Below, piece after piece: positions 3,755 through 47,246 of a stretch of 64,000 nt of DNA. The notes below the pieces were generated by a model. That model saw nothing but the letters and a program-made list of their open reading frames with translations. It did not search any database and had not been told where the DNA came from. The stretch's first letter is position 1, and each line of letters begins with the position of its first letter. This DNA is from Pseudanabaena mucicola str. Chao 1806 (GTDB lineage Bacteria > Cyanobacteriota > Cyanobacteriia > Pseudanabaenales > Pseudanabaenaceae), in NCBI RefSeq assembly GCF_030323025.1, contig NZ_CP097329.1, positions 1,457,001-1,521,000 on the forward strand, in the 5' to 3' direction. Made by a program: the position numbers and the translations under genes.

Positions 3755-4783
3755 TTATTGAAAAATAGGATCGGTGATGCCATCGATAATGAAGTCGGAA
3801 ATTAGCTTAGCTGTGATTGGGGCAAAGAGAATACCATTGCGATAATGTCCTGTGGCTAAAACTAGGTTTTCGTAATCACTAGCTCCTAAAATAGGAATTT
3901 CATCGGGGGCGTAGGGACGGAATCCCCACCATGTTTCCGTGATGGGCATATTCGCGATCGCAGGATAGACAGAGATCGCTCTATTTAATAATTGTGTGAT
4001 ACCTACGGCAGTAATACCCTGCTCAAAGCCTTTATCCTCAACTGTTGCACCGATAACGATTGTGCCATCTTGGCGCGGCACTATATAACAACTCGGTGCA
4101 TAGATGACACGTTGCAATTGCCGATCGCGATCAAATACCGATAGCATCTGTCCCTTAATTGGTTTAACTGGTAAAGGCAGCAGCGATCGCGTCCATGCGC
4201 CCGTTGCCAAAACATAGCGATCGCTTTGCAATTTGCCAACACTAGTATCAAGATGAGTAACTCGTTGATGATCACGGACAATTTGATATACGTTAACACC
4301 TTCGAGAATTTTGATCGATAGAGATCGCGCCGCAGTTAATAAAGCCTGCGTGAGTTTGCGATTGTTCACCTGTCCATCTTCTGGGAGCCAGAGAGAACCT
4401 AAAACCACTTCACCTAAGCCTGATTGACGTTTATGGGATTCTTCTCGACTGATGTATTGAGGATATTTAGCAATTATTTGATGATCGCTTTCTTCGATAC
4501 TGGGGGCAATCATGCCACAGCACCAATAGCCACAATCTAGCCCTGATAAGCGCATTAGATTAGCAATCCATTGCGGATACATATCTCGGCTACGAATCCC
4601 AAATCCTAAGAGTGATCCTTCAAGGCGTTCGGCTTCAGGAGCAAGCATTCCCGCCGCCGCCCATGTTGCGCCTTGCCCACAGATATCACGCTCAACAACA
4701 GTGACACTGGCTCCCTTTTGCGAAAGGGCGATCGCTGTTGACAAGCCAATAATGCCACCACCAATTATTAAAACGTCAGGCAT
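3755..4783 (-). CDS. thiO: Glycine oxidase ThiO
   Basis: A 342-residue FAD-dependent amine oxidase of the DAO family. Residues 4-20 give the Rossmann dinucleotide-binding motif (IIGGGIIGLSTAIAL), ATWAAAGMLAPEAE near residue 40 is typical of ThiO, and the C-terminal stretch ending NLVLATGHYRNGILFAP is the second FAD-contact region. ThiO oxidises glycine to iminoacetate, which supplies the thiazole moiety of thiamine. In many cyanobacteria ThiO is fused to ThiG; here it is a stand-alone protein. The methyltransferase gene upstream on the same strand ends 53 bases before this start, so the two may be co-transcribed. No TPP riboswitch is visible upstream. Confidence 0.88.
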   Translation of the reverse strand: MPDVLIIGGGIIGLSTAIALSQKGASVTVVERDICGQGATWAAAGMLAPEAERLEGSLLGFGIRSRDMYPQWIANLMRLSGLDCGYWCCGMIAPSIEESDHQIIAKYPQYISREESHKRQSGLGEVVLGSLWLPEDGQVNNRKLTQALLTAARSLSIKILEGVNVYQIVRDHQRVTHLDTSVGKLQSDRYVLATGAWTRSLLPLPVKPIKGQMLSVFDRDRQLQRVIYAPSCYIVPRQDGTIVIGATVEDKGFEQGITAVGITQLLNRAISVYPAIANMPITETWWGFRPYAPDEIPILGASDYENLVLATGHYRNGILFAPITAKLISDFIIDGITDPIFQ

Positions 4784-37135: not shown

Positions 37136-38062
37136 TTAGGCTTTGTGCTTGGCTACAGACCTGCCTAGGCTGCGGTAATAGGTTGTACCAATGATCGCAA
37201 AAAAAGCGACATAGGCGATCGCCTGTACTAAATACAGCTTATCGGTATAGCCAAAGAGAGAACTGAGAATTACCCCCGGAAATTTCTCGGCAGGTAATAC
37301 TTTGCTCGTATTCCAGACCATATTGCCGAGGATGCAGGAATGCTCACGGGCAAAATGCTCATAAAAGAAGCAGATGGACTCGGATTTGCGATCGCTTTGA
37401 GAGAGAATTCGTAACGCCGTATCGAAATGTCCAAGTGCGGAAATGACTAAACCTGAGACAATCGCAAGGAGCATAAAGCCCATAATTTTGAAGAAGGCGC
37501 GGATATTAATTTGGATACCAAATTTAAATAATCCGATCGCGATCGCGGTGGCGGCTAGGATGCCACTGACGGCTCCGAGGGCAGGCATCAATCCTTCTTG
37601 GAATTTGGCGGAAATAAATAGAACGACTTCAAACCCTTCGCGCAAAATCGCAAATAAAATCAGTCCGAAAATACCTAAGCCTGCTTTTTTGCCTTTACCT
37701 AAAACGCTATTTAATGAGCCTTCAATTTCTCCCTTCATGGCGCGGCTCTGTTTGGTCATCCAGATCAACATCCATGTCAACATCGCGATCGCTGCAAGAC
37801 TAAAGACACCTTCGAGCAATGGCTCAAATACTGCCGATAGTTCAGGATTACTTGTACCGATGCTTTGCATGAACCAATTAAAGATGATGCCAACGATCGC
37901 GCTAATTACGAGTCCCATGCCGATACCTGCAAAGACCCATTTATTCAGATGCGATCGCCTAGCGCGTTTGAGATATGCCATGACGATGCCAATGACGAGG
38001 GCAGCTTCGACACCTTCGCGCAGGGTAATTACAAAAGTTGGCAGAGTTAAACTGATGTCCAT
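37136..38062 (-). CDS. FTR1-family high-affinity iron permease
   Basis: A 308-residue, seven-helix permease. The two REGxE iron-binding motifs are present: VITLREGVEAALVIGIVMAY near the N-terminus and AILREGFEVVLFISA near residue 150. In yeast and bacteria FTR1/EfeU moves Fe(III) delivered by a ferroxidase. The upstream genes on the same strand encode an HhH lipoprotein (71-base gap) and a multicopper oxidase, which fits a complete oxidase-permease uptake unit. Start ATG 38062 gives MDISLTLPTFVITLREG; the longer frame is out of family. Confidence 0.88.
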   Translation of the reverse strand: MDISLTLPTFVITLREGVEAALVIGIVMAYLKRARRSHLNKWVFAGIGMGLVISAIVGIIFNWFMQSIGTSNPELSAVFEPLLEGVFSLAAIAMLTWMLIWMTKQSRAMKGEIEGSLNSVLGKGKKAGLGIFGLILFAILREGFEVVLFISAKFQEGLMPALGAVSGILAATAIAIGLFKFGIQINIRAFFKIMGFMLLAIVSGLVISALGHFDTALRILSQSDRKSESICFFYEHFAREHSCILGNMVWNTSKVLPAEKFPGVILSSLFGYTDKLYLVQAIAYVAFFAIIGTTYYRSLGRSVAKHKA

Positions 38063-38133
38063 AAAGTTTTTAGATAAAAATTTATATGGGTAATGGCGGC
38101 GCAAAGCGCCGCCATTACCCAAAGAAAAGGGGG

Positions 38134-39210
38134 TTAGGATTTTGCGTAAACTTTGGTAGCGGCTTGTTCGTTGCCTTTAATTAATTCAGCCATAGCTGCA
38201 ACGGAAAGCACTGGTTTTTCGGGGGCGATCGCACTGGGATATGCCGACTTGAGTTTGTCTAAACTTGCTGTAAATTGTTGGTGCACATCAGGATGTTGCT
38301 TTTCCATCGTAGAGGCGATGCTCTTGTATAACTGTTCCACATAAATAGTGAAACCTCGCGAGTCCTGATACTCGATGATTTCTTTGATTTTGTCATTGGC
38401 GATCGCTGCTCGATATTCTGTACCCGCCGTATCCAGAATTGCATTAATCACTTGCAGCGCAAACTTCGGTGATTGACGCTGAGTTTCAGGAATGGCAGCG
38501 ATCGCACTATCGATGCTAGCCATTGCCTCATTATATTTCGCAGCAATACTAGGATCGTTGGGCTTGGACTTGACCAACTGCTGCAAGTCCATCAATGGCT
38601 GTTTAAATTCTTTGACTTTGCGTTCTTTGAGTTGACCTTCCACATCTGCATAAATTTCTTCGACAGGATGCTCAATATGGGGAAGCGCCTGATCAGGCTT
38701 TTGAACATCTAGTAATTCCTTCGCCACAATCATGTGACCCTTCATCAAACCTAGTTTAGTTAAATAATCAACATCCTTAGCTTCACCAGTTAACTCCACG
38801 GTTTCTGTCCCAACCATATCTTTGATTTGGGCAAACTGTTCCACCGTGACCACCTTCTTTGTCACCAAATCTTCCACTTTCGTATAGGGACGCGCCGCCT
38901 GAATCTTATTAGACAAACCCGCAATTCCTAACTTCGCTTCCACTTTATCTAGTTCCGACAAAATCGCTTCGTTGATATTGATTTTGGCTTTGTTATGACT
39001 AGCCCCCATGCCATCTTTAGCCATTCCCGTTTTGGGTTCAGTTTTGGACTCAATGGTTGCAGGATTAGGAGATTTGATCGCTTGCGGCTCGTTGCTACAT
39101 GCTGCGATCGCGATCGCACTCACTAATGACAGCGTAAACAATAGGAAAAAGGCTTTGCTTTTGACTAGAGCTTTTAAGGATTGTCTAAGGAAAGAAATAA
39201 TTGCGGACAT
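38134..39210 (-). CDS. Lipoprotein with helix-hairpin-helix domain, iron-uptake associated
   Basis: A 358-residue protein. The N-terminal signal AFFLLFTLSLVSAIAIAACS ends in a lipobox-like Cys. A ComEA-type HhH region (ININEAILSELDKVEAKLGI, ARPYTKVEDLVTKKVVTVEQ) follows, then an all-helical C-terminal domain (ADVEGQLKERKVKEFKQPLM, IEYQDSRGFTIYVEQLYKSI). The helical part resembles periplasmic imelysin/EfeO-like partners of FTR1 permeases, so it may bind iron near the permease. That is inferred mostly from position. The start at 39210 is preferred over 39267. Confidence 0.7.
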   Translation of the reverse strand: MSAIISFLRQSLKALVKSKAFFLLFTLSLVSAIAIAACSNEPQAIKSPNPATIESKTEPKTGMAKDGMGASHNKAKININEAILSELDKVEAKLGIAGLSNKIQAARPYTKVEDLVTKKVVTVEQFAQIKDMVGTETVELTGEAKDVDYLTKLGLMKGHMIVAKELLDVQKPDQALPHIEHPVEEIYADVEGQLKERKVKEFKQPLMDLQQLVKSKPNDPSIAAKYNEAMASIDSAIAAIPETQRQSPKFALQVINAILDTAGTEYRAAIANDKIKEIIEYQDSRGFTIYVEQLYKSIASTMEKQHPDVHQQFTASLDKLKSAYPSAIAPEKPVLSVAAMAELIKGNEQAATKVYAKS

Positions 39211-39367
39211 GAAGGTAACTAAGGAATGTGATAAGGAATGTAATTTCGATAGGTATAGATAATGCAACTAATTTGCAATAACTGATTTAACCCTATTAGA
39301 GCATAATCTTGCAAGTAATTCTCAATAAATGTTCAATTTGCCTCTACTGATAGGAGAAGCAAATTAC

Positions 39368-40375
39368 TTAGCTGGCGACAACATCAAATAAGCCCATACA
39401 ACCTGCCTCAGCGATCGCATCTTGGTGCGGATGAAACATATATTTGCCCGTGAAGCGATATTGCAACTCTAAAATATGTCTCTCCGCTGTCCCCATCGTG
39501 ATCACATCCGTTTCCTCGGTTGGAGTCATGGTGCGTCCTGTGCGATAGACCTGAAACATATTTGCATGGACATGGAAGGTCGCGACAGGATCACCCTCAA
39601 TCATATTCAAGACATAGAGACGCAATAGTTGATTTTGCTGTACCGCGATGGGTTGCTGCATATAGAAATGGGGCAACCCATTAAAGGCGTACATTTCATT
39701 ACGTCCATCCCCATCAATGTCATAGCCACCCATGATCAGCACGATTTCATCCGCAGGAGGTCGCGGCGTGGGTGGATCGACGATAAACATGCCGTACAAA
39801 CCTTTGCCAATATGCCTTGCCACAGGTGCAACATGGCAATGATACAAATGCACACCGTAGGGCTTCGCATCAAATTCATAAATTGTGGCTGCGCCATTGC
39901 GAATTGGATTGACTCCATCCATTGGGGAGGGATGTTCGCCGTGAAAGTGCAATGAATGGGCATGTCCTGCCTGATTGGAAAAAGCAATCCGCACGCGATC
40001 GCCTTCCGTTGCTCTTAAGGTCGGACCAGGAACGCGATCGTTCACATTCCAAGTAATGAAGTCCGTTGAGGCATTTAATTTAACTGTTTTGCTTTTGGCG
40101 GTTAGCTCAAACTCACGCACCGTCCTCCCATTTTCTTGGCTCACTTTGCCATAGTCAAACTCCCGCAAGGCAGCGATCGGATCGAGTCCACTAGTCTTAA
40201 TTCTGGCTTGAGCCGCCTCGTTGAGCGACATGGTGGGAATCACAATCTTTTTGGGTAAATTCTGATTATTTTCATGATTGCGATTTGCACCGATGGGACT
40301 ACAGGCGATCGCACCGCCAAGTAATCCGAAACCACCCAGCCCCAGTTCTAATATTTTTCTACGTTGACGATCCAT
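39368..40375 (-). CDS. Two-domain multicopper oxidase, probable ferroxidase
   Basis: A 335-residue exported cupredoxin protein. A Tat-like start (DRQRRKILELGLGGFGLLGG) precedes a Cys. Copper motifs are HSLHFHGEHPSPMDGV, HLYHCHVAPVARHIGKGLYG with Met after it (type 1 site in domain 1), ATFHVHANMFQVY, and KYMFHPHQDAIAEAG. The layout, with a type 1 centre in domain 1 and HxH pairs shared between domains, resembles two-domain laccases and nitrite reductases. Substrate is inferred as Fe(II) because FTR1 is downstream. Terminal oxidation to NO reduction is a less likely alternative. Confidence 0.82.
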   Translation of the reverse strand: MDRQRRKILELGLGGFGLLGGAIACSPIGANRNHENNQNLPKKIVIPTMSLNEAAQARIKTSGLDPIAALREFDYGKVSQENGRTVREFELTAKSKTVKLNASTDFITWNVNDRVPGPTLRATEGDRVRIAFSNQAGHAHSLHFHGEHPSPMDGVNPIRNGAATIYEFDAKPYGVHLYHCHVAPVARHIGKGLYGMFIVDPPTPRPPADEIVLIMGGYDIDGDGRNEMYAFNGLPHFYMQQPIAVQQNQLLRLYVLNMIEGDPVATFHVHANMFQVYRTGRTMTPTEETDVITMGTAERHILELQYRFTGKYMFHPHQDAIAEAGCMGLFDVVAS

Positions 40376-40489
40376 CAAGCCTACTTGCAAATAGTTCCTA
40401 TTTACCTTAGCAAAAAAATATTGCTTCCCATTGCTTTCGCAACTATTACCAGATTTGTGGTTTTGTAATTCTCATTTACTTCAAATCAT

Positions 40490-41929
40490 TTACTTCAAAA
40501 ATGCTGCAATTTTATCTGCTTCTTGAAGACTACGCTTAATGCAATCACCTAGTGAAACACCGCCAATAAAATTCGCGCTGACATATAGACCCTGCGACTT
40601 TTGCAATTCAGCTTCAATAGTGGCAAGACGCTCTAAATGTCCGATTTCATATTGAGGAATTGCTTTGTCCCACACATGCACAGCGATCGCCTTGGGTTCG
40701 GCTTTGGTATTAGGACGTAGTAGCGTTTTCTTGAGATCTTGATGTACCGCTTGCACGATCTCCGCTTCTGAAAGATTCGCTAACGCAGGATCGAGAGTGC
40801 CACCAATAAAGTTCAGCAATAATTGCCAACCCTCAGGGGCGCGTCCTGCAAATAGACTAGATGACCAAATTGTTCCAAGAGTTCTTACACCTTGCGTGCG
40901 GGGGATGAGATTACCGAATCCCCTCATGTCATAAGCAAATTCACTTTTGGGATAGGCAAGTACGGCACATGCCACGGTCGGATAGAAAATCTCGCTCAGT
41001 GCTTGGCTTGCAGCAGGTAAATAGCTCTGCAATAACTTGGCGCTCACATAGGCAGGAGTAGTCAAAACTACAGATCGCGATGTGATTGTTTCTGTACCCG
41101 TAGGCGTATCAAACTGAGAAACATAGATTTCGCATTGCTTTTCTATCGATCGCAAAGTCCATTGTTGTTTGACAGCCGTACCTTGATCTCTGAGTCTGGT
41201 TGCGATCGCTTCGGGCAGCATTTTAATGCCTTGGCGGAATGAACCTAGTTCGCCAGACTTCACCTTGGGAATATTCAGATCGTTCAGCTTTTGGGATTTG
41301 CGATCTTTTGCCGTCAGGATAGCTCCTGCGATCAAACCACCATAGTCATTCTCAAGACGGAAAATTTTAGAAAAAGCGGCTCTAGCACTGAGACGTTTGG
41401 GATCACCCGCATAGACTCCAGAGATAAAAGGTGCAACTAAGCGCTCCACTGCTTGCTTACCTAAGAGTCGCGAAAAAAACTGGTCAACAGATTCTTCTCC
41501 ACTCATGGCAGGACGCGCAAAACCTAATGCACCCAGAGCTAGTCGAATCTTGCCGCCCCAAGTAAGGATTTTGGAGGCGATCGCGCTAGGTGGACTCATC
41601 GGCAGTGCATTTAACTTGCCATTGAGAAATATAAATCGCGGCAACTTACCGTCAGCAAGTACCAATTCATCCTTGAGCCCTACCTGTACGGCTAGACGCA
41701 ATAACTCTGGTGATGGCTGAAAGCTATTGGGTCCCTCTTCCCAGAGATAGCCTTCATCATTACGGTTACTGGTGATTGCACCACCCACGCGATCTTGAGC
41801 TTCTGCAACTAAAACACGGTAATTTTTGGCAATCGCGAGTTCATGGGCGATCGCTAAACCAGAAATTCCTGCCCCAACGACAAGAACATCTAAGGATTGA
41901 TTAACTTCGGTGGTTTGGGCAGAAGTCAT
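40490..41929 (-). CDS. hemG: Protoporphyrinogen oxidase, HemY/PPO type
   Basis: A 479-residue FAD enzyme that oxidises protoporphyrinogen IX to protoporphyrin IX for heme and chlorophyll. The dinucleotide fold is VLVVGAGISGLAIAHELA, followed by DRVGGAITSNRNDEGYLWEE and GPNSFQPSPELLRL. The C-terminus ends SANFIGGVSLGDCIKRSLQ, the FAD-contact signature. This is the plant-like PPO form. ATG 41929 (MTSAQTTEV) is chosen because the longer frame from 41971 overlaps the DUF2811 gene. Confidence 0.9.
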   Translation of the reverse strand: MTSAQTTEVNQSLDVLVVGAGISGLAIAHELAIAKNYRVLVAEAQDRVGGAITSNRNDEGYLWEEGPNSFQPSPELLRLAVQVGLKDELVLADGKLPRFIFLNGKLNALPMSPPSAIASKILTWGGKIRLALGALGFARPAMSGEESVDQFFSRLLGKQAVERLVAPFISGVYAGDPKRLSARAAFSKIFRLENDYGGLIAGAILTAKDRKSQKLNDLNIPKVKSGELGSFRQGIKMLPEAIATRLRDQGTAVKQQWTLRSIEKQCEIYVSQFDTPTGTETITSRSVVLTTPAYVSAKLLQSYLPAASQALSEIFYPTVACAVLAYPKSEFAYDMRGFGNLIPRTQGVRTLGTIWSSSLFAGRAPEGWQLLLNFIGGTLDPALANLSEAEIVQAVHQDLKKTLLRPNTKAEPKAIAVHVWDKAIPQYEIGHLERLATIEAELQKSQGLYVSANFIGGVSLGDCIKRSLQEADKIAAFLK

Positions 41930-41945
41930 AGTGGAGGAGATTGAA

Positions 41946-42173
41946 CTAAACTGAGTAATGAAATAAGGCATTCAAATAGACTTTGGCGGTGCTGCGATAG
42001 CTATGGGATGAACCACTAAGGCGATCGCTACCTCCATTTTGCAGTAGGAACAATGACAAAGCAGCAGCAAATACGCGATCCTGATCCCAATCAGGGTGGG
42101 ATTCTAGATAATTTTTGAGAGTTTCGTGCAGTTCTTCAGGAATTTCGGCAAGGATGCTGACAGTTGTATTCAT
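41946..42173 (-). CDS. DUF2811 family protein
   Basis: A 75-residue cyanobacterial protein. VSILAEIPEELHETLKNYLE, HPDWDQDRVFAAALSLFLLQ and the C-terminal YRSTAKVYLNALFH match the small DUF2811 family of unknown role. It lies 16 bases upstream of the hemG start on the same strand, so co-transcription is likely. Confidence 0.82.
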   Translation of the reverse strand: MNTTVSILAEIPEELHETLKNYLESHPDWDQDRVFAAALSLFLLQNGGSDRLSGSSHSYRSTAKVYLNALFHYSV

Positions 42174-42459
42174 GCTGAAACCTCAACTTTTAAACAAGTT
42201 CTATAGAAATGATGCAACCATTTTTTAGAGGTCGGGACTTAATTGTGCGTTCAACTAGCAGATCTTGTCAACGTAACGAAGAGAGCAATACTAATGACAA
42301 ACAAACGAATCAAATTTGAAAGGATCAGTACTTTAACCTGTATTTATTTACATTTCTTCATTTGACTCAAGTTTCAAAAAGTTTTCCCAAGTGATTTCAT
42401 TCTCATATTAATGAATCCTTAACCAGCAAGGCAAAGACATCACCGTCAATAAAATCACC

Positions 42460-42620
42460 TGTGGAAAACCCCTAGTAATCTGTGGAAAAAGCCTCAATAT
42501 CTGTGGAAAACCCTGTGGAAAACTTGTGATTTAGGAATTTTAAAATTATTTAAAGTTATTTTTTTTTAATATTTGTGATCTTTTATCTGAATATAACCAT
42601 ATAGTTTTTAACGACATTTT
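42460..42620. other. Candidate replication origin: four DnaA-like boxes and an AT-rich tract
   Basis: TGTGGAAAA (complement TTTTCCACA, the DnaA box form reported for cyanobacteria) occurs at 42460, 42481, 42502 and 42514. All are in the same orientation, spaced 21, 21 and 12 bases. Immediately after them 42530-42615 is very AT-rich (runs of T and A), resembling a DNA unwinding element. The gap 42174-42635 has no gene. Origin function is inference; a DnaA titration or regulatory cluster is the main alternative. Confidence 0.6.
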
Positions 42621-42635
42621 CTGACTATTTCTAGG

Positions 42636-43067
42636 CTATTGCAGCCAATTTTCAGGTACAACAACTAGTGTTGTACCTTCTCTGCGTAAAACAATTACTT
42701 TTTGCTGGGCAGTGATCTCAATTCTGGAATCATCACACCTCGCTTTCCATGACACTCCCTCATATCGGACTCGTCCAGTTTCCCCTGCAGGAATTGCTGT
42801 AAGCGTAATACCTTCTCGTGCCTCTTGTAGTTGATGAGAATCCCTAGGAATAAAGCGTCGTGACAACATCACTAATAGCCCTGAGATCACCATCCATGCG
42901 AATATTTGTAGGGCAGGCAGGGGAAGAATTAATGCAATAACTGCCACGCATAAAGCAGCCACTCCCATCGCTCCAGCAATCAAAAAAGTTGGCAATGGCA
43001 CTAGCAACTCGATCGCACATAGAGACATGCCAATAATTAGCCAGATTTGAATAGGTGTTAAGTTCAT
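42636..43067 (-). CDS. NfeD-family membrane protein
   Basis: A 143-residue protein. Two to three membrane helices (IWLIIGMSLCAIELLVPLPT, AGAMGVAALCVAVIALILPL, IFAWMVISGLLVML) are followed by a C-terminal OB-fold domain (LTAIPAGETGRVRYEGVSWK), the short NfeD form that often partners SPFH-family proteins in membrane microdomains. No SPFH gene is adjacent. It overlaps the end of the MCE gene by 4 bases and so belongs to that operon. Confidence 0.85.
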   Translation of the reverse strand: MNLTPIQIWLIIGMSLCAIELLVPLPTFLIAGAMGVAALCVAVIALILPLPALQIFAWMVISGLLVMLSRRFIPRDSHQLQEAREGITLTAIPAGETGRVRYEGVSWKARCDDSRIEITAQQKVIVLRREGTTLVVVPENWLQ

Positions 43068-44389
43068 TGATCGCTTGAGCTATTAATAAAACTAGAAGCT
43101 TCTGTAGATGTGCTAGATTCTGATTTAGTCGTTTTACTAATGGTTGTCATGGGGGTAGGGCTATTGATTTTGACCTTTTCCTGCTCTAAAGACTTTTCGC
43201 GCCTTTCCCGATCATCGATAGCTGGCTTAATCAACTTACTACGCGCAACTTCGATGTTAGTTGGTAATTTCTCCGTTGCAGTTTCACTAGGACGCGAATT
43301 GCTTGGTGTCGGCAAATTATCCAGATTAGGAGCCGTCGATAGCAAACCACCTAATCCATTAATCAAATTACGAATATTGTTCCGCAGTTGGGGATCGCCT
43401 GTGAGTTCATCTAAATCTGCCGTAATCTTCTTTGCATTGGCAAAGGTTGCCCTCGCTGAGTCGAGAGTTTCTCGCAGGGAAGCAATGGTTGCTGGATCGC
43501 TCAATTCTCCTGTAACCTTTCGTAGGTTTGCCGATGTTTCTGCCGCATTGTCTGCAAGTTTTTGCAAATTTGCAATCAGTTTACCGTCATTGAGAAGAGG
43601 TTTCGCACTAGCCAAGAGTGATCGCGCTTCTCGTGAAGCTGCCGCAATTCCATCTAGAGTTTGCGCTAATTTCTCGCGATTGACCTCAATTAAATCTTGA
43701 GCACTGTTGGCGACACTACCCACCTTATTCGCCGCACCACTAATCGCATCAGCCGTATCTCCAAACTTCACAATCTGGTTTTCAAATGTTCCAACAACAC
43801 GGTTAGCTGAATCAGTTAATTTTTGGATACTTTTTGCCGTCACTTTTGCCGAATTTAACGTGTCATTGAGGTTATCGATTAGACCTTGGTCATTGATTTT
43901 GCGAAGGGTCGCACTCATATCCTTGAGAAGTAAGGTAAAACTCACGCCCCTAGATCCTTCAATCTGTCCACCCTGACAAACAATCAGATCATTGTTGCAT
44001 TCCTTGGCTAAGGGATTGAGGTTTGGATCCAGTGTCACCTTATCCTTCGGTGGAAAAATGTCAATATTGGTATTGCCTAAAAAACCACTCTGATTAGTCT
44101 CAGCGACAGACAGTTTTGGAATAATTAATTTGGAATTTTCCACGGTCACCAGTATATCAACACTATCGGTTTGAGCAGTCAAGGCGGTAACTCGACCGAT
44201 TTCGACACCACGAAACCTCACGACGGAGCCAGTATTTAACCCACTAGCATCAGGTAATTTGATCGTAAATGTAAACTTAGAACTATTCAGTAGCTGCCCG
44301 CGCAACCATAACAATGCACCGCCAAGAGCAACCACTCCACCGATGATAAATAAGCCAAGCGCACCGTCTCGTAATGTTTTTCGCTGCAC
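43064..44389 (-). CDS. MCE/MlaD-family lipid transport substrate-binding protein
   Basis: A 441-residue protein. One N-terminal membrane helix (LGLFIIGGVVALGGALLWLR) is followed by the MlaD domain (TIKLPDASGLNTGSVVRFRG, VEIGRVTALTA). A long helical region with TID/AN-type repeats follows (residues 170-330), and a Ser/Thr-rich disordered tail. It probably forms a hexameric shuttle or tunnel for lipids between inner membrane and outer membrane, as in plant TGD2 and bacterial Mla. The ABC ATPase gene lies 5 bases upstream. The matching permease (MlaE/TGD1) is not here. Confidence 0.88.
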   Translation of the reverse strand: MQRKTLRDGALGLFIIGGVVALGGALLWLRGQLLNSSKFTFTIKLPDASGLNTGSVVRFRGVEIGRVTALTAQTDSVDILVTVENSKLIIPKLSVAETNQSGFLGNTNIDIFPPKDKVTLDPNLNPLAKECNNDLIVCQGGQIEGSRGVSFTLLLKDMSATLRKINDQGLIDNLNDTLNSAKVTAKSIQKLTDSANRVVGTFENQIVKFGDTADAISGAANKVGSVANSAQDLIEVNREKLAQTLDGIAAASREARSLLASAKPLLNDGKLIANLQKLADNAAETSANLRKVTGELSDPATIASLRETLDSARATFANAKKITADLDELTGDPQLRNNIRNLINGLGGLLSTAPNLDNLPTPSNSRPSETATEKLPTNIEVARSKLIKPAIDDRERREKSLEQEKVKINSPTPMTTISKTTKSESSTSTEASSFINSSSDQ

Positions 44390-44394
44390 GAGTC

Positions 44395-45228
44395 TTATAC
44401 CTCCTTAGTCAAAAGTTGAATTGGTCCTTCAGTACTGCCACTAAAGAATTGTCTAACATACGGGTTGTCTGCCGTATCAATTGTACTCACGTTTCCTGCA
44501 TAGCGCACCGATCCGCGATATAAAACCATCAGGCGATCAGCGGTACGACGGATTGTACTGTCTTGGTGAGTCACCACAATATAGCTATCACAGACCTGTT
44601 GATCCCTAAGCGATCGCATTAAGTCCTCGATGATTGTCGAAGCGATAGGATCAAGCCCTGCAGTTGGTTCGTCATAGAGTAGGATTTTTTTAGCTTGCGT
44701 TTTTGTCGTGGGGTCATCCATTATGGCTCGGGCAAAGCTGACTCGCTTACGCATCCCACCTGATAGCTGACTAGGGTAGCGATTGCTAATATTTTCTAGT
44801 CCCACTAAAGCTAATTTTTGTTCAACCAGTCGATAAATTTCACGGCGGGATAATCGTGAATGCTCAAATAGGGAAAAGCCCACATTTTCAGCCACTGTCA
44901 GTGAGTCAAATAACGCTGCACTTTGAAATACCATGCCAATGTTGAGACCATAGCTACCTTCTTGAATATCTTCTTCAGACTCCACAAGGTTGCCATTGAC
45001 ATATACTTCACCTGAATCAGCAGTCAACAAGCCACAAATTACCCGCAAAATTGTTGATTTACCTGTACCAGAAGGACCAATAATCGCGATCGCCTCTCCA
45101 GAATGTACTGTCAGATCAAAACCTTTAAGGATAGGGTTTTGTCCAAAGCTCTTATGAATCCCACGCAGTTCTAGCAAGGGTGTAACAACACTGCTACTTT
45201 TTTTAGTCAGAGATCTAACTGGCTCCAT
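44395..45228 (-). CDS. ABC transporter ATP-binding protein, MlaF/TGD3-like
   Basis: A 277-residue ATPase. Walker A GPSGTGKST, the signature LSGGMRKRVSFARAI and Walker B ILLYDEPTAGLDP are all intact. The GMRKRV variant of the signature is typical of the Mla/TGD lipid-import class. It is first in the ABC-MCE-NfeD operon. Confidence 0.9.
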   Translation of the reverse strand: MEPVRSLTKKSSSVVTPLLELRGIHKSFGQNPILKGFDLTVHSGEAIAIIGPSGTGKSTILRVICGLLTADSGEVYVNGNLVESEEDIQEGSYGLNIGMVFQSAALFDSLTVAENVGFSLFEHSRLSRREIYRLVEQKLALVGLENISNRYPSQLSGGMRKRVSFARAIMDDPTTKTQAKKILLYDEPTAGLDPIASTIIEDLMRSLRDQQVCDSYIVVTHQDSTIRRTADRLMVLYRGSVRYAGNVSTIDTADNPYVRQFFSGSTEGPIQLLTKEV

Positions 45229-45306
45229 TGGTATTTGTCGCTGATAAGATACATAGCTCTACAAAAAACTAACATTTTTGCAGAAACATTTCCTAAAAAG
45301 CCAAAA

Positions 45307-45333
45307 AGAAAAGGACGCTTTGCGCCCTTTTCT
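45307..45333. terminator. Terminator between pstB and the ABC-MCE operon
   Basis: AGAAAAGG pairs with CCTTTTCT around an inner GC/GC step. It lies about 80 bases past the pstB stop and before the ABC gene. Confidence 0.6.
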
Positions 45334-45410
45334 GAGTCTAAATGAGGATCAATTTTCTAGGTTTAGCTTTGCCGTACCCAAAAATTTGATCTTTATGAAA
45401 TTGCAAAACC

Positions 45411-46226
45411 CTAACCGAACCTACCGCTAATATACTCTTCAGTAGCAACTTGCTTAGGACTGCTAAAAATTACGGATGTGCGATCGATCTCCACCAATTT
45501 ACCAGTGCGCTTACCAGTTTCGCTGAGTTCAGTATTAAAGAACGCAGTCATATCTGCAGATCGCGAAGCTTGCTGCATGTTGTGAGTCACAATTACCAGA
45601 GTATACTTCTGCTTTAGCTCTTGCATCAATTCTTCAATGCGAAGGGTTGAGATTGGATCAAGAGCCGAGCAAGGCTCATCCATTAAGATTACCTGTGGCT
45701 CGACGGCGATTGCTCTAGCAATACATAGACGTTGCTGCTGTCCACCAGAAAGAGCTAAACCACTCTGATTTAGTTGGTCCTTTACCTCATCCCAAATTGC
45801 GGCTGATCGCAAAGATTTTTCGACCAAATCAGCCATATCGTTCTTAGAACCCTTAAATCCATTAATTCGAGGACCGAAGGCAATATTTTCATAAATAGAC
45901 TTTGGAAAAGGATTAGGACGTTGGAATACCATCCCAATATGACGACGAACTGCTACGGGATCGATTTTAGGATCGTAAAGGTTATGACCATTAAAGGTTA
46001 TTTTCCCCCTAACTTTTGCACCCTCAATCAAATCATTGAGACGATTAAAACATCTCAGGATCGTACTCTTACCACATCCTGAAGGTCCAATAAATGCGGT
46101 AATTTGATTTTTGGCAATTTCTAAGTTAACACCTGCTACTGCTGGTGAGTTGGAACTATAAAAAACATTAACGTCTTCAACCTTTAAAATTGCCTGATTT
46201 TCGGAAATGCTGTTGCTTAAGTTCAT
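45411..46226 (-). CDS. pstB: Phosphate ABC transporter ATP-binding protein
   Basis: A 271-residue ATPase. Walker [30 protein letters not shown] (PstB-specific), [15 protein letters not shown] and [12 protein letters not shown] are present. It energises high-affinity phosphate uptake, last in pstSCAB with 48 bases from pstA. Confidence 0.96.
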
Positions 46227-46274
46227 TGTAAAAAACCAAATTCGTTAGATTTATCTTTCATTAAATACTCTGAG

Positions 46275-47246
46275 TTAATTTGCACGACTGCGTAGAAAGA
46301 TTGCGATCAAATTCATACCTAAAACCAAAATTAAAAGCACCACGATCCCAGCCGAAGCTAGTACCTGAAATTCTGCCTTAGGGTCACCCACCCATTCATA
46401 GATTTGGTAAGGCAGAACTGAGAAGAAATTATCGTTTGACCATAATGTATCTGTAAATACATCTCCTATCTTACCACTGAACAAAGCTCCAAAGTTTATG
46501 GGGGAAGCCTTAGGATCGAATAGAACAGTACCAGCGCCAAGAACAACAATCGGTGCAGTCTCACCGATACCTCTAGAAGTAGATATAATCACCGCCGTCA
46601 AAATGCCTGGTAATGCCGCAGGTAAAACATGATGGCGAATTGTCTGCCACTTAGTTGCCCCAACTCCGTAGGATGCCTGGCGAATAGATTGAGGAACAGC
46701 GCGAATCGCTTCTCTAGAGATGACGATGACTGGCGGTAAAATGAGTAATGTAATTGTCAAAATCCCTGTCACTAATACAGCCCGACCACCATACATACCG
46801 CGTACAAATAACCCTAAGCCTAATAGTCCATAGATAATTGATGGAATACCAGCTAAGTTGTAAATATTTAGTTCAATTAAATCTGTAAACCAATTTTTTT
46901 TTGCATATTCTTCTAAGTAAATTGCGGAGCAAACTCCAAGCGGAACTACTAGTAACAATACATAGGAAAGCATCGCTATAGAGCCAAGAATTGCAGCCCT
47001 GTATCCAGACTCTGATGGGCGGCGAGATGGATATAATTGGAATAAATCCCAATTGAGTCGGCTAGAGCCATCCTGCACTACCTTATAAATTAAAAAAGCA
47101 AGAACAATTAGCCCAAGGGAGGTGGCAAAAATACAGAAAGCGGCAAATATTTTTCCCCATAGCTGCCTTGATTTGAGCTTAGGTTCAAATCTTGACTCAA
47201 TAGGCTGTCCTTCAATCGTTTCTAATATATCTGAGCTGTTACTCAT
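46275..47246 (-). CDS. pstA: Phosphate ABC transporter permease PstA
   Basis: A 323-residue, six-helix permease. [20 protein letters not shown] precedes the membrane core, [20 protein letters not shown] follows, and the EAA loop [20 protein letters not shown] contacts PstB. It overlaps pstC by 8 bases, which supports translational coupling. Confidence 0.95.

Follow-up and report, generated by a model that had tools for sequence, protein, structure and literature searches.

A conserved DnaA-box array upstream of the DUF2811 gene in cyanobacteria is probably a promoter module rather than an origin of replication

On the comparative sequence evidence, the four DnaA boxes in the window (the whole 64-kb stretch of Pseudanabaena mucicola DNA that was analysed) are probably no origin of replication but belong to a conserved DnaA-box promoter module of rigid layout that serves a single small protein. 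It is likely that the array forms the DnaA-binding part of a promoter module of about 300 bp that controls the gene for DUF2811. By sequence, the module consists of same-orientation boxes, mostly 21-22 bp apart, and a TTGACA about 183 bp from the last box, the one nearest DUF2811 (196-197 bp in Pseudanabaena). The boxes and the TTGACA stay with DUF2811 while the neighbouring genes and the length of the leader change. One reading in the initial annotation, a regulatory locus next to hemG and DUF2811, comes close to what the evidence supports, which is an array kept upstream of DUF2811 at a fixed distance from a promoter. In the open-licence literature searched, no description of a DnaA-box promoter module of DUF2811 was found and no paper names DUF2811; the module supplies a first functional context for this family.

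The box array and the question of an origin

The array sits between nfeD and the minus-strand DUF2811 gene, 295-349 bp ahead of the DUF2811 start. The features of the locus are as follows.

40490..41971, minus strand: protoporphyrinogen-oxidase-like gene, which we take to be hemG, possibly co-transcribed with DUF2811 (PF01593, 206 bits)
41946..42173, minus strand: DUF2811 gene, 75 aa (PF10929, 96.3 bits against a cut-off of 26.6)
42242..42271, minus strand: putative promoter, TTGACA at 42266-42271 and CACAAT at 42242-42247 with a spacer of 18, from a pattern scan and comparative distance
42377..42390, minus strand: conserved word TTGGGAAAACTTTT, lying 78 bp past the last box here and found at +78 or +79 in 13 of the 27 Pseudanabaena-group loci
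42414..42422, minus strand: conserved word TTAAGGATT, lying 46 bp past the last box, a position (+46) shared by 16 of the 27 Pseudanabaena-group loci
42460..42468, minus strand: DnaA box TTTTCCACA, the last box, exact match; 96% identity over 23 genus sequences
42481..42489, minus strand: DnaA box TTTTCCACA, exact match, 21 bp from the 42460 box; 94% genus identity
42502..42510, minus strand: DnaA box TTTTCCACA, exact match, 21 bp beyond the 42481 box; 94% genus identity
42514..42522, minus strand: DnaA box TTTTCCACA, exact match, 12 bp beyond the 42502 box; 95% genus identity
42530..42620, no strand: A/T-rich tract behind the array, 85% A+T; 45% genus identity

The 9-mers TGTGGAAAA at 42460, 42481, 42502 and 42514 are all exact and in a single orientation, as initially annotated. 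The A/T-rich stretch described beside them is present (42530-42620), and the gene-free interval, given as 460 bp, measures 462 bp (42174-42635). The boxes had also been called in phase, which holds for the two spacings of 21 bp and fails for the last, 12 bp being no whole number of helical turns. The identification of the 9-mer as the reported cyanobacterial DnaA box agrees with the sequence TTTTCCACA published in PMC4674748, as far as the accessible part of that paper goes.

There are no further copies of TGTGGAAAA in the window. A count of four in 64 kb is unremarkable, being reached in 4 of 100 shuffles, and the array stands out because of its clustering rather than this count. The 4.53-Mb single-contig genome contains 67 copies of the box and 32 of a reversed control word. 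Pairs of boxes 30 bp or less apart occur at just two places genome-wide, the window array and C1:2866014-2866219. By a rough Poisson estimate, four copies within 63 bp have an expectation of about 6e-9 per genome.

The second place lies in a cluster of eight boxes in both orientations (C1:2866014-2866525, 71% A+T) directly upstream of dnaN, the match to which begins at 2866583; dnaA is elsewhere, at C1:88230. This bears on the proposal, made initially, that the window array is oriC. Were the array an origin, whether the main one of the chromosome or a second one, DnaA would melt the A/T-rich tract and load the helicase there; we consider this very improbable. The array does share the TTTTCCACA box and nearby A/T-rich DNA with the cyanobacterial oriC beside dnaN (PMC4674748, accessible part), having four exact boxes in 63 bp in a row that adjoins the 85% A+T tract. 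It differs from such an oriC in its distance from dnaN, which is 1.37 Mb off, and in having single-orientation boxes, a regular phase and a tie to a promoter. Predicted oriC regions lie beside dnaN in 55 of 68 cyanobacterial species, according to the same portion of PMC4674748. The larger cluster immediately upstream of dnaN in this same genome, the weak conservation of the A/T tract, which has the lowest identity of all parts within the genus (45%, where the boxes have 94-96%), and the locking of the array geometry to the promoter all argue against an origin in the window. The oriC reading thus gave way to a promoter-locked array, with dnaN having its own eight-box cluster 1.37 Mb away. Multiple origins have been reported in some cyanobacteria (PMC7198777, accessible part), which speaks for this alternative, so a minor origin here is best described as unlikely.

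GC skew over 42 sampled stretches was irregular, without a clean V, and its lowest cumulative values were at about 2.9-3.6 Mb, not 1.5 Mb; the sampled skew is too irregular and therefore locates no origin. Among these stretches, C1:2567193-2587192 has 30% GC and C1:2340676-2360675 has 35%, most of the others being at about 42%, and it is possible that these two are mobile DNA.

Conservation and fixed spacing upstream of DUF2811

DUF2811 is present in 25 of the 26 genomes of the genus. At least two exact boxes are upstream of it in 24 of the 25 loci, and 16 loci carry the full set of four with the 12/21/21 spacing of the window; the 25th is truncated by a contig end. Identity to the window over the 23 genus sequences, with L011 and L012, from the genome and species of the window itself, excluded and gaps counted as mismatches, is 94-96% in the boxes, 52-72% in the linkers, 45% in the A/T tract and 87% in the putative promoter and leader, with the same 87% for the block containing the putative promoter (42236-42280).

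Beyond the genus, in the phylum sample, all 27 of the best-scoring loci have at least one exact upstream box and 22 have at least two; these 27 include L094, from a DnaA-less genome. Among the best 80 of 444 named loci, one or more exact forward boxes lie within 700 bp in 74 and two or more in 66, in an orientation that is nearly invariant (174 forward, 1 reverse, and none in 55 kb of downstream control). The six boxless loci of these 80 comprise two cut by contig ends, three with near-boxes only and one with nothing.

The genes around DUF2811 are not constant. An upstream neighbour was obtained for 47 of 53 loci, and these neighbours belong to 23 different groups. Within the best 80 of 444 named loci, hemG is the same-strand neighbour of DUF2811 in only 28 of 76, which rules it out as the constant target of the array, and nfeD was matched in Pseudanabaena-group loci only and is likewise no constant partner. 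Of the named relatives found, a Pseudanabaena metagenome assembly (L124) is the nearest; its DUF2811 and nfeD are both 100% identical to those of the window.

A -35/-10 scan of the window found 2 sites where 2.9 are expected from shuffles. Since such sites are no commoner than in shuffles, the scan alone is no evidence for the promoter without the comparative distances. These are given here for the best 80 of 444 named loci. In 18 of the 27 Pseudanabaena-group loci among them, TTGACA is 196-197 bp from the last box. In the loci L151-L203, which do not belong to the Pseudanabaena group, sites repeat at offsets of 0, -21 and -43 relative to the last exact box, with TTTTCCCCA near -65 and AATTCTTAT near -86. 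On the other side of the last box, TGGGGATT is found at +44/45 in 30 of the 49 box-bearing loci outside this group and TTGACA at 182-184 bp in 39 of the 49; GTAACAAA occurs near +104 and a -10-like word near +208. Taken over the 74 loci with an exact box in the best 80 of 444, a -35/-10 pattern lies 172-175, 181-184 or 196-197 bp from the boxes in 49, and the same pattern was seen once in 221 kb of downstream control. The promoter-to-start distance in the best 80 of 444 ranges from 60 to 417 bp. Because both this distance and the upstream neighbours vary, it is the promoter to which the array is fixed, and neither the start of the gene nor its surroundings.

A set of 43 loci from 24 families was examined with a looser TTGAC-type word and with TTATCCACA also accepted as a box. 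The set omits the DnaA-less L094 and L211-L213 and keeps three boxless loci of family f6. A box and TTGAC-type pair was found at 165-200 bp in 38 loci and at 182-184 bp in 28, where base frequencies of one quarter predict about three or four and fewer than one, respectively. At least one pair at 165-200 bp occurs in 23 of the 24 families. In the f21 and f19 loci, as in one f18 locus, the box of the pair is not the last one. Family f7, which may be the Nostocaceae, has the module in all six of its loci. The boxes therefore have a set place relative to the promoter, as in a DnaA-regulated promoter.

Large plasmids carry the gene too, in Acaryochloris, Nostoc and Aulosira (L235-L241, upstream of position 4001), and the box row is present in the copies from Nostoc and Aulosira. 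Seven of 13 plasmid records were examined, and the spacing of 182-183 bp is found in four of the seven (three from Nostoc, one from Aulosira); in named Nostoc strains, the module is beside DUF2811 on all three plasmids examined. The 183-bp spacing is absent from the three Acaryochloris plasmid copies; in two of them a box or near-box is found at 126-127 bp, and in the third there is none.

This geometry helps to weigh the alternative of a DnaA-titrating or DnaA-converting site, of the datA, DARS or Bacillus box-cluster type, that lies beside DUF2811 by chance. A row of strong boxes outside oriC would suit such a site, and comparable three-box rows are found in other cyanobacteria away from DUF2811, with the TTGAC word at 182-184 bp in 0 of 13. 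The array is also like datA, DARS1 and DARS2 of E. coli in being a DnaA-box cluster outside oriC; those differ in being described, in the portions of the sources available, as non-coding control regions acting on DnaA itself. Titration needs neither a fixed distance to a promoter nor a constant partner gene in 24 families, and we regard it as unlikely to account for the array. A double role, in titration and in control of DUF2811, is conceivable.

Loss of DUF2811 together with DnaA

The Pfam families for DUF2811 (PF10929) and DnaA (PF08299), and only these two, were searched in the same 387 genomes of the class, with completeness of at least 97%. DnaA is present in 366, and 364 of these have DUF2811. 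The 21 DnaA-less genomes, in which G541 is counted by inference, are spread over six families. Of these, 15 are without DUF2811, three (G079, G172 and G500) have it with in-frame stops and three (G208, G292 and G530) have it open. The co-occurrence has a Fisher p of 2e-20 over the 387 genomes, which are not mutually independent. Within four genera of mixed composition, DUF2811 is lost or broken in 7 of 9 DnaA-less and in 0 of 13 DnaA-bearing genomes, a split matched by 78 of 200,000 within-genus shuffles. In the first sample, of 292 phylum genomes, 17 class genomes are without DnaA, and all 13 class genomes without DUF2811 are also without DnaA.

The boxes decay too. They are eroded in all six DnaA-less genomes that retain the DUF2811 gene or a remnant, with no exact forward box in G079, G172, G500 and G530 and one each in G208 and G292; G208 has in addition two remnants one letter off the box. 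G168, a DnaA-bearing genome from the genus of G172, G208 and G292, has two exact boxes and one near-box in phase.

Gene and boxes thus depend on the presence of DnaA across species, as would those of a DnaA-regulated promoter, with exceptions (G001, G324, G380, G208, G292, G530 and family f6). DnaA is present and DUF2811 absent in G001, from the same genus as the window, and in G324, both drafts of hundreds of contigs, and in G380 DnaA is present and the DUF2811 gene is split. Three genomes of family f6 (loci L214, L215 and L216) have DnaA and DUF2811 and no box within 800 bp upstream of the latter, so boxlessness is not limited to DnaA-less genomes.

The same pattern argues against the 9-mers being read by a protein other than DnaA. 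Further conserved words between the array and the promoter do suggest that additional proteins bind there. The 9-mer itself is the cyanobacterial DnaA box of PMC4674748 (accessible part), the cluster at dnaN is filled by the same word, and DUF2811 and its boxes decay where DnaA has gone. A different reader of the boxes is accordingly highly doubtful.

Possible function of the module and of other box rows

For the favoured reading, a DnaA-bound promoter module, a mechanism can be proposed. DnaA would occupy the boxes cooperatively along a single face of the helix, and the conserved words between the array and the promoter would be spanned by a loop or by an extended complex of DnaA and DNA. Across these 170-200 bp, DnaA may contact RNA polymerase or a second regulator at the intervening words, and transcription of DUF2811 would then be set by the amount or nucleotide state of DnaA. 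In Pseudanabaena, the neighbouring hemG is perhaps co-controlled. Activation is slightly favoured over simple blocking because the boxes keep clear of the -35, lying 170-200 bp upstream of it. Either sign of control, activation or repression, is compatible with the loss of DUF2811 once DnaA is gone.

In other bacteria, promoters with DnaA boxes, such as those of nrdAB and sda, have DnaA as a transcription factor (PMC8203912, in the part available). The likeness of the window array to Bacillus subtilis sda and E. coli nrdAB is in the DnaA boxes of the promoter region, and sda also encodes a small protein under direct DnaA control, according to the same part of PMC8203912; DUF2811 is likewise small and its control by DnaA is predicted. 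The array differs from these promoters in being a same-orientation row 170-200 bp upstream of the -35, at a distance nearly fixed across families. In addition, DUF2811 is unrelated to them by family name and the binding of DnaA at the array is putative.

If it is so controlled, DUF2811 probably acts in a process that is of use only while DnaA is there, for example tuning initiation or reporting replication status, like Sda in Bacillus. The AlphaFold2 model of the protein is poor (mean pLDDT 54, pTM 0.31, helices only), and when solved structures, Pfam and NCBIfam were searched with profiles, no convincing match other than DUF2811 itself came up. A ribbon-helix-helix fold, an idea arrived at by eye, was dropped for these two reasons. 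With no detectable relatives of known function and no confident model, the role of DUF2811 is read solely from its dependence on DnaA. A search for copies in phages gave no match, and no Rfam family reached its gathering score in positions 38000-47000 of the window.

DnaA is dispensable for replication in Synechocystis 6803 and Nostoc 7120, and its role in such cyanobacteria is left open in the accessible part of Ohbayashi et al. 2020 (PMC7198777). The conserved DnaA-box promoter module gives this question a named target that can be tested in viable dnaA mutants. More tentatively, DUF2811 could be a dedicated, cyanobacteria-wide partner or output of DnaA under its direct control, feeding back on replication or the cell cycle, and this circuit could be a reason why dnaA survives where it is not needed for initiation.

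Box rows are also found away from DUF2811. Thirteen loci (L104-L116) have rows of three TTTTCCACA boxes in a 20-22-bp phase (for example L105:2935-2985, L106:3032-3081, L108:3042-3092 and L113:3028-3078), and most of the rows lie behind the 3' end of an open reading frame or between two such ends. Four of them adjoin a gene that we take to be guaA, and it is possible that the rows are titration or DARS-like sites. The DnaA-less genome G134 has a row of three TTTTCCACA at 21 bp with identical linkers (L117:3051-3101), which resembles short direct repeats, perhaps plasmid iterons. Pairs of boxes occur directly behind dnaA in G154 (L118:2989-3020) and, in G237, behind a gene that is presumably that of topoisomerase I (L122:2984-3012).
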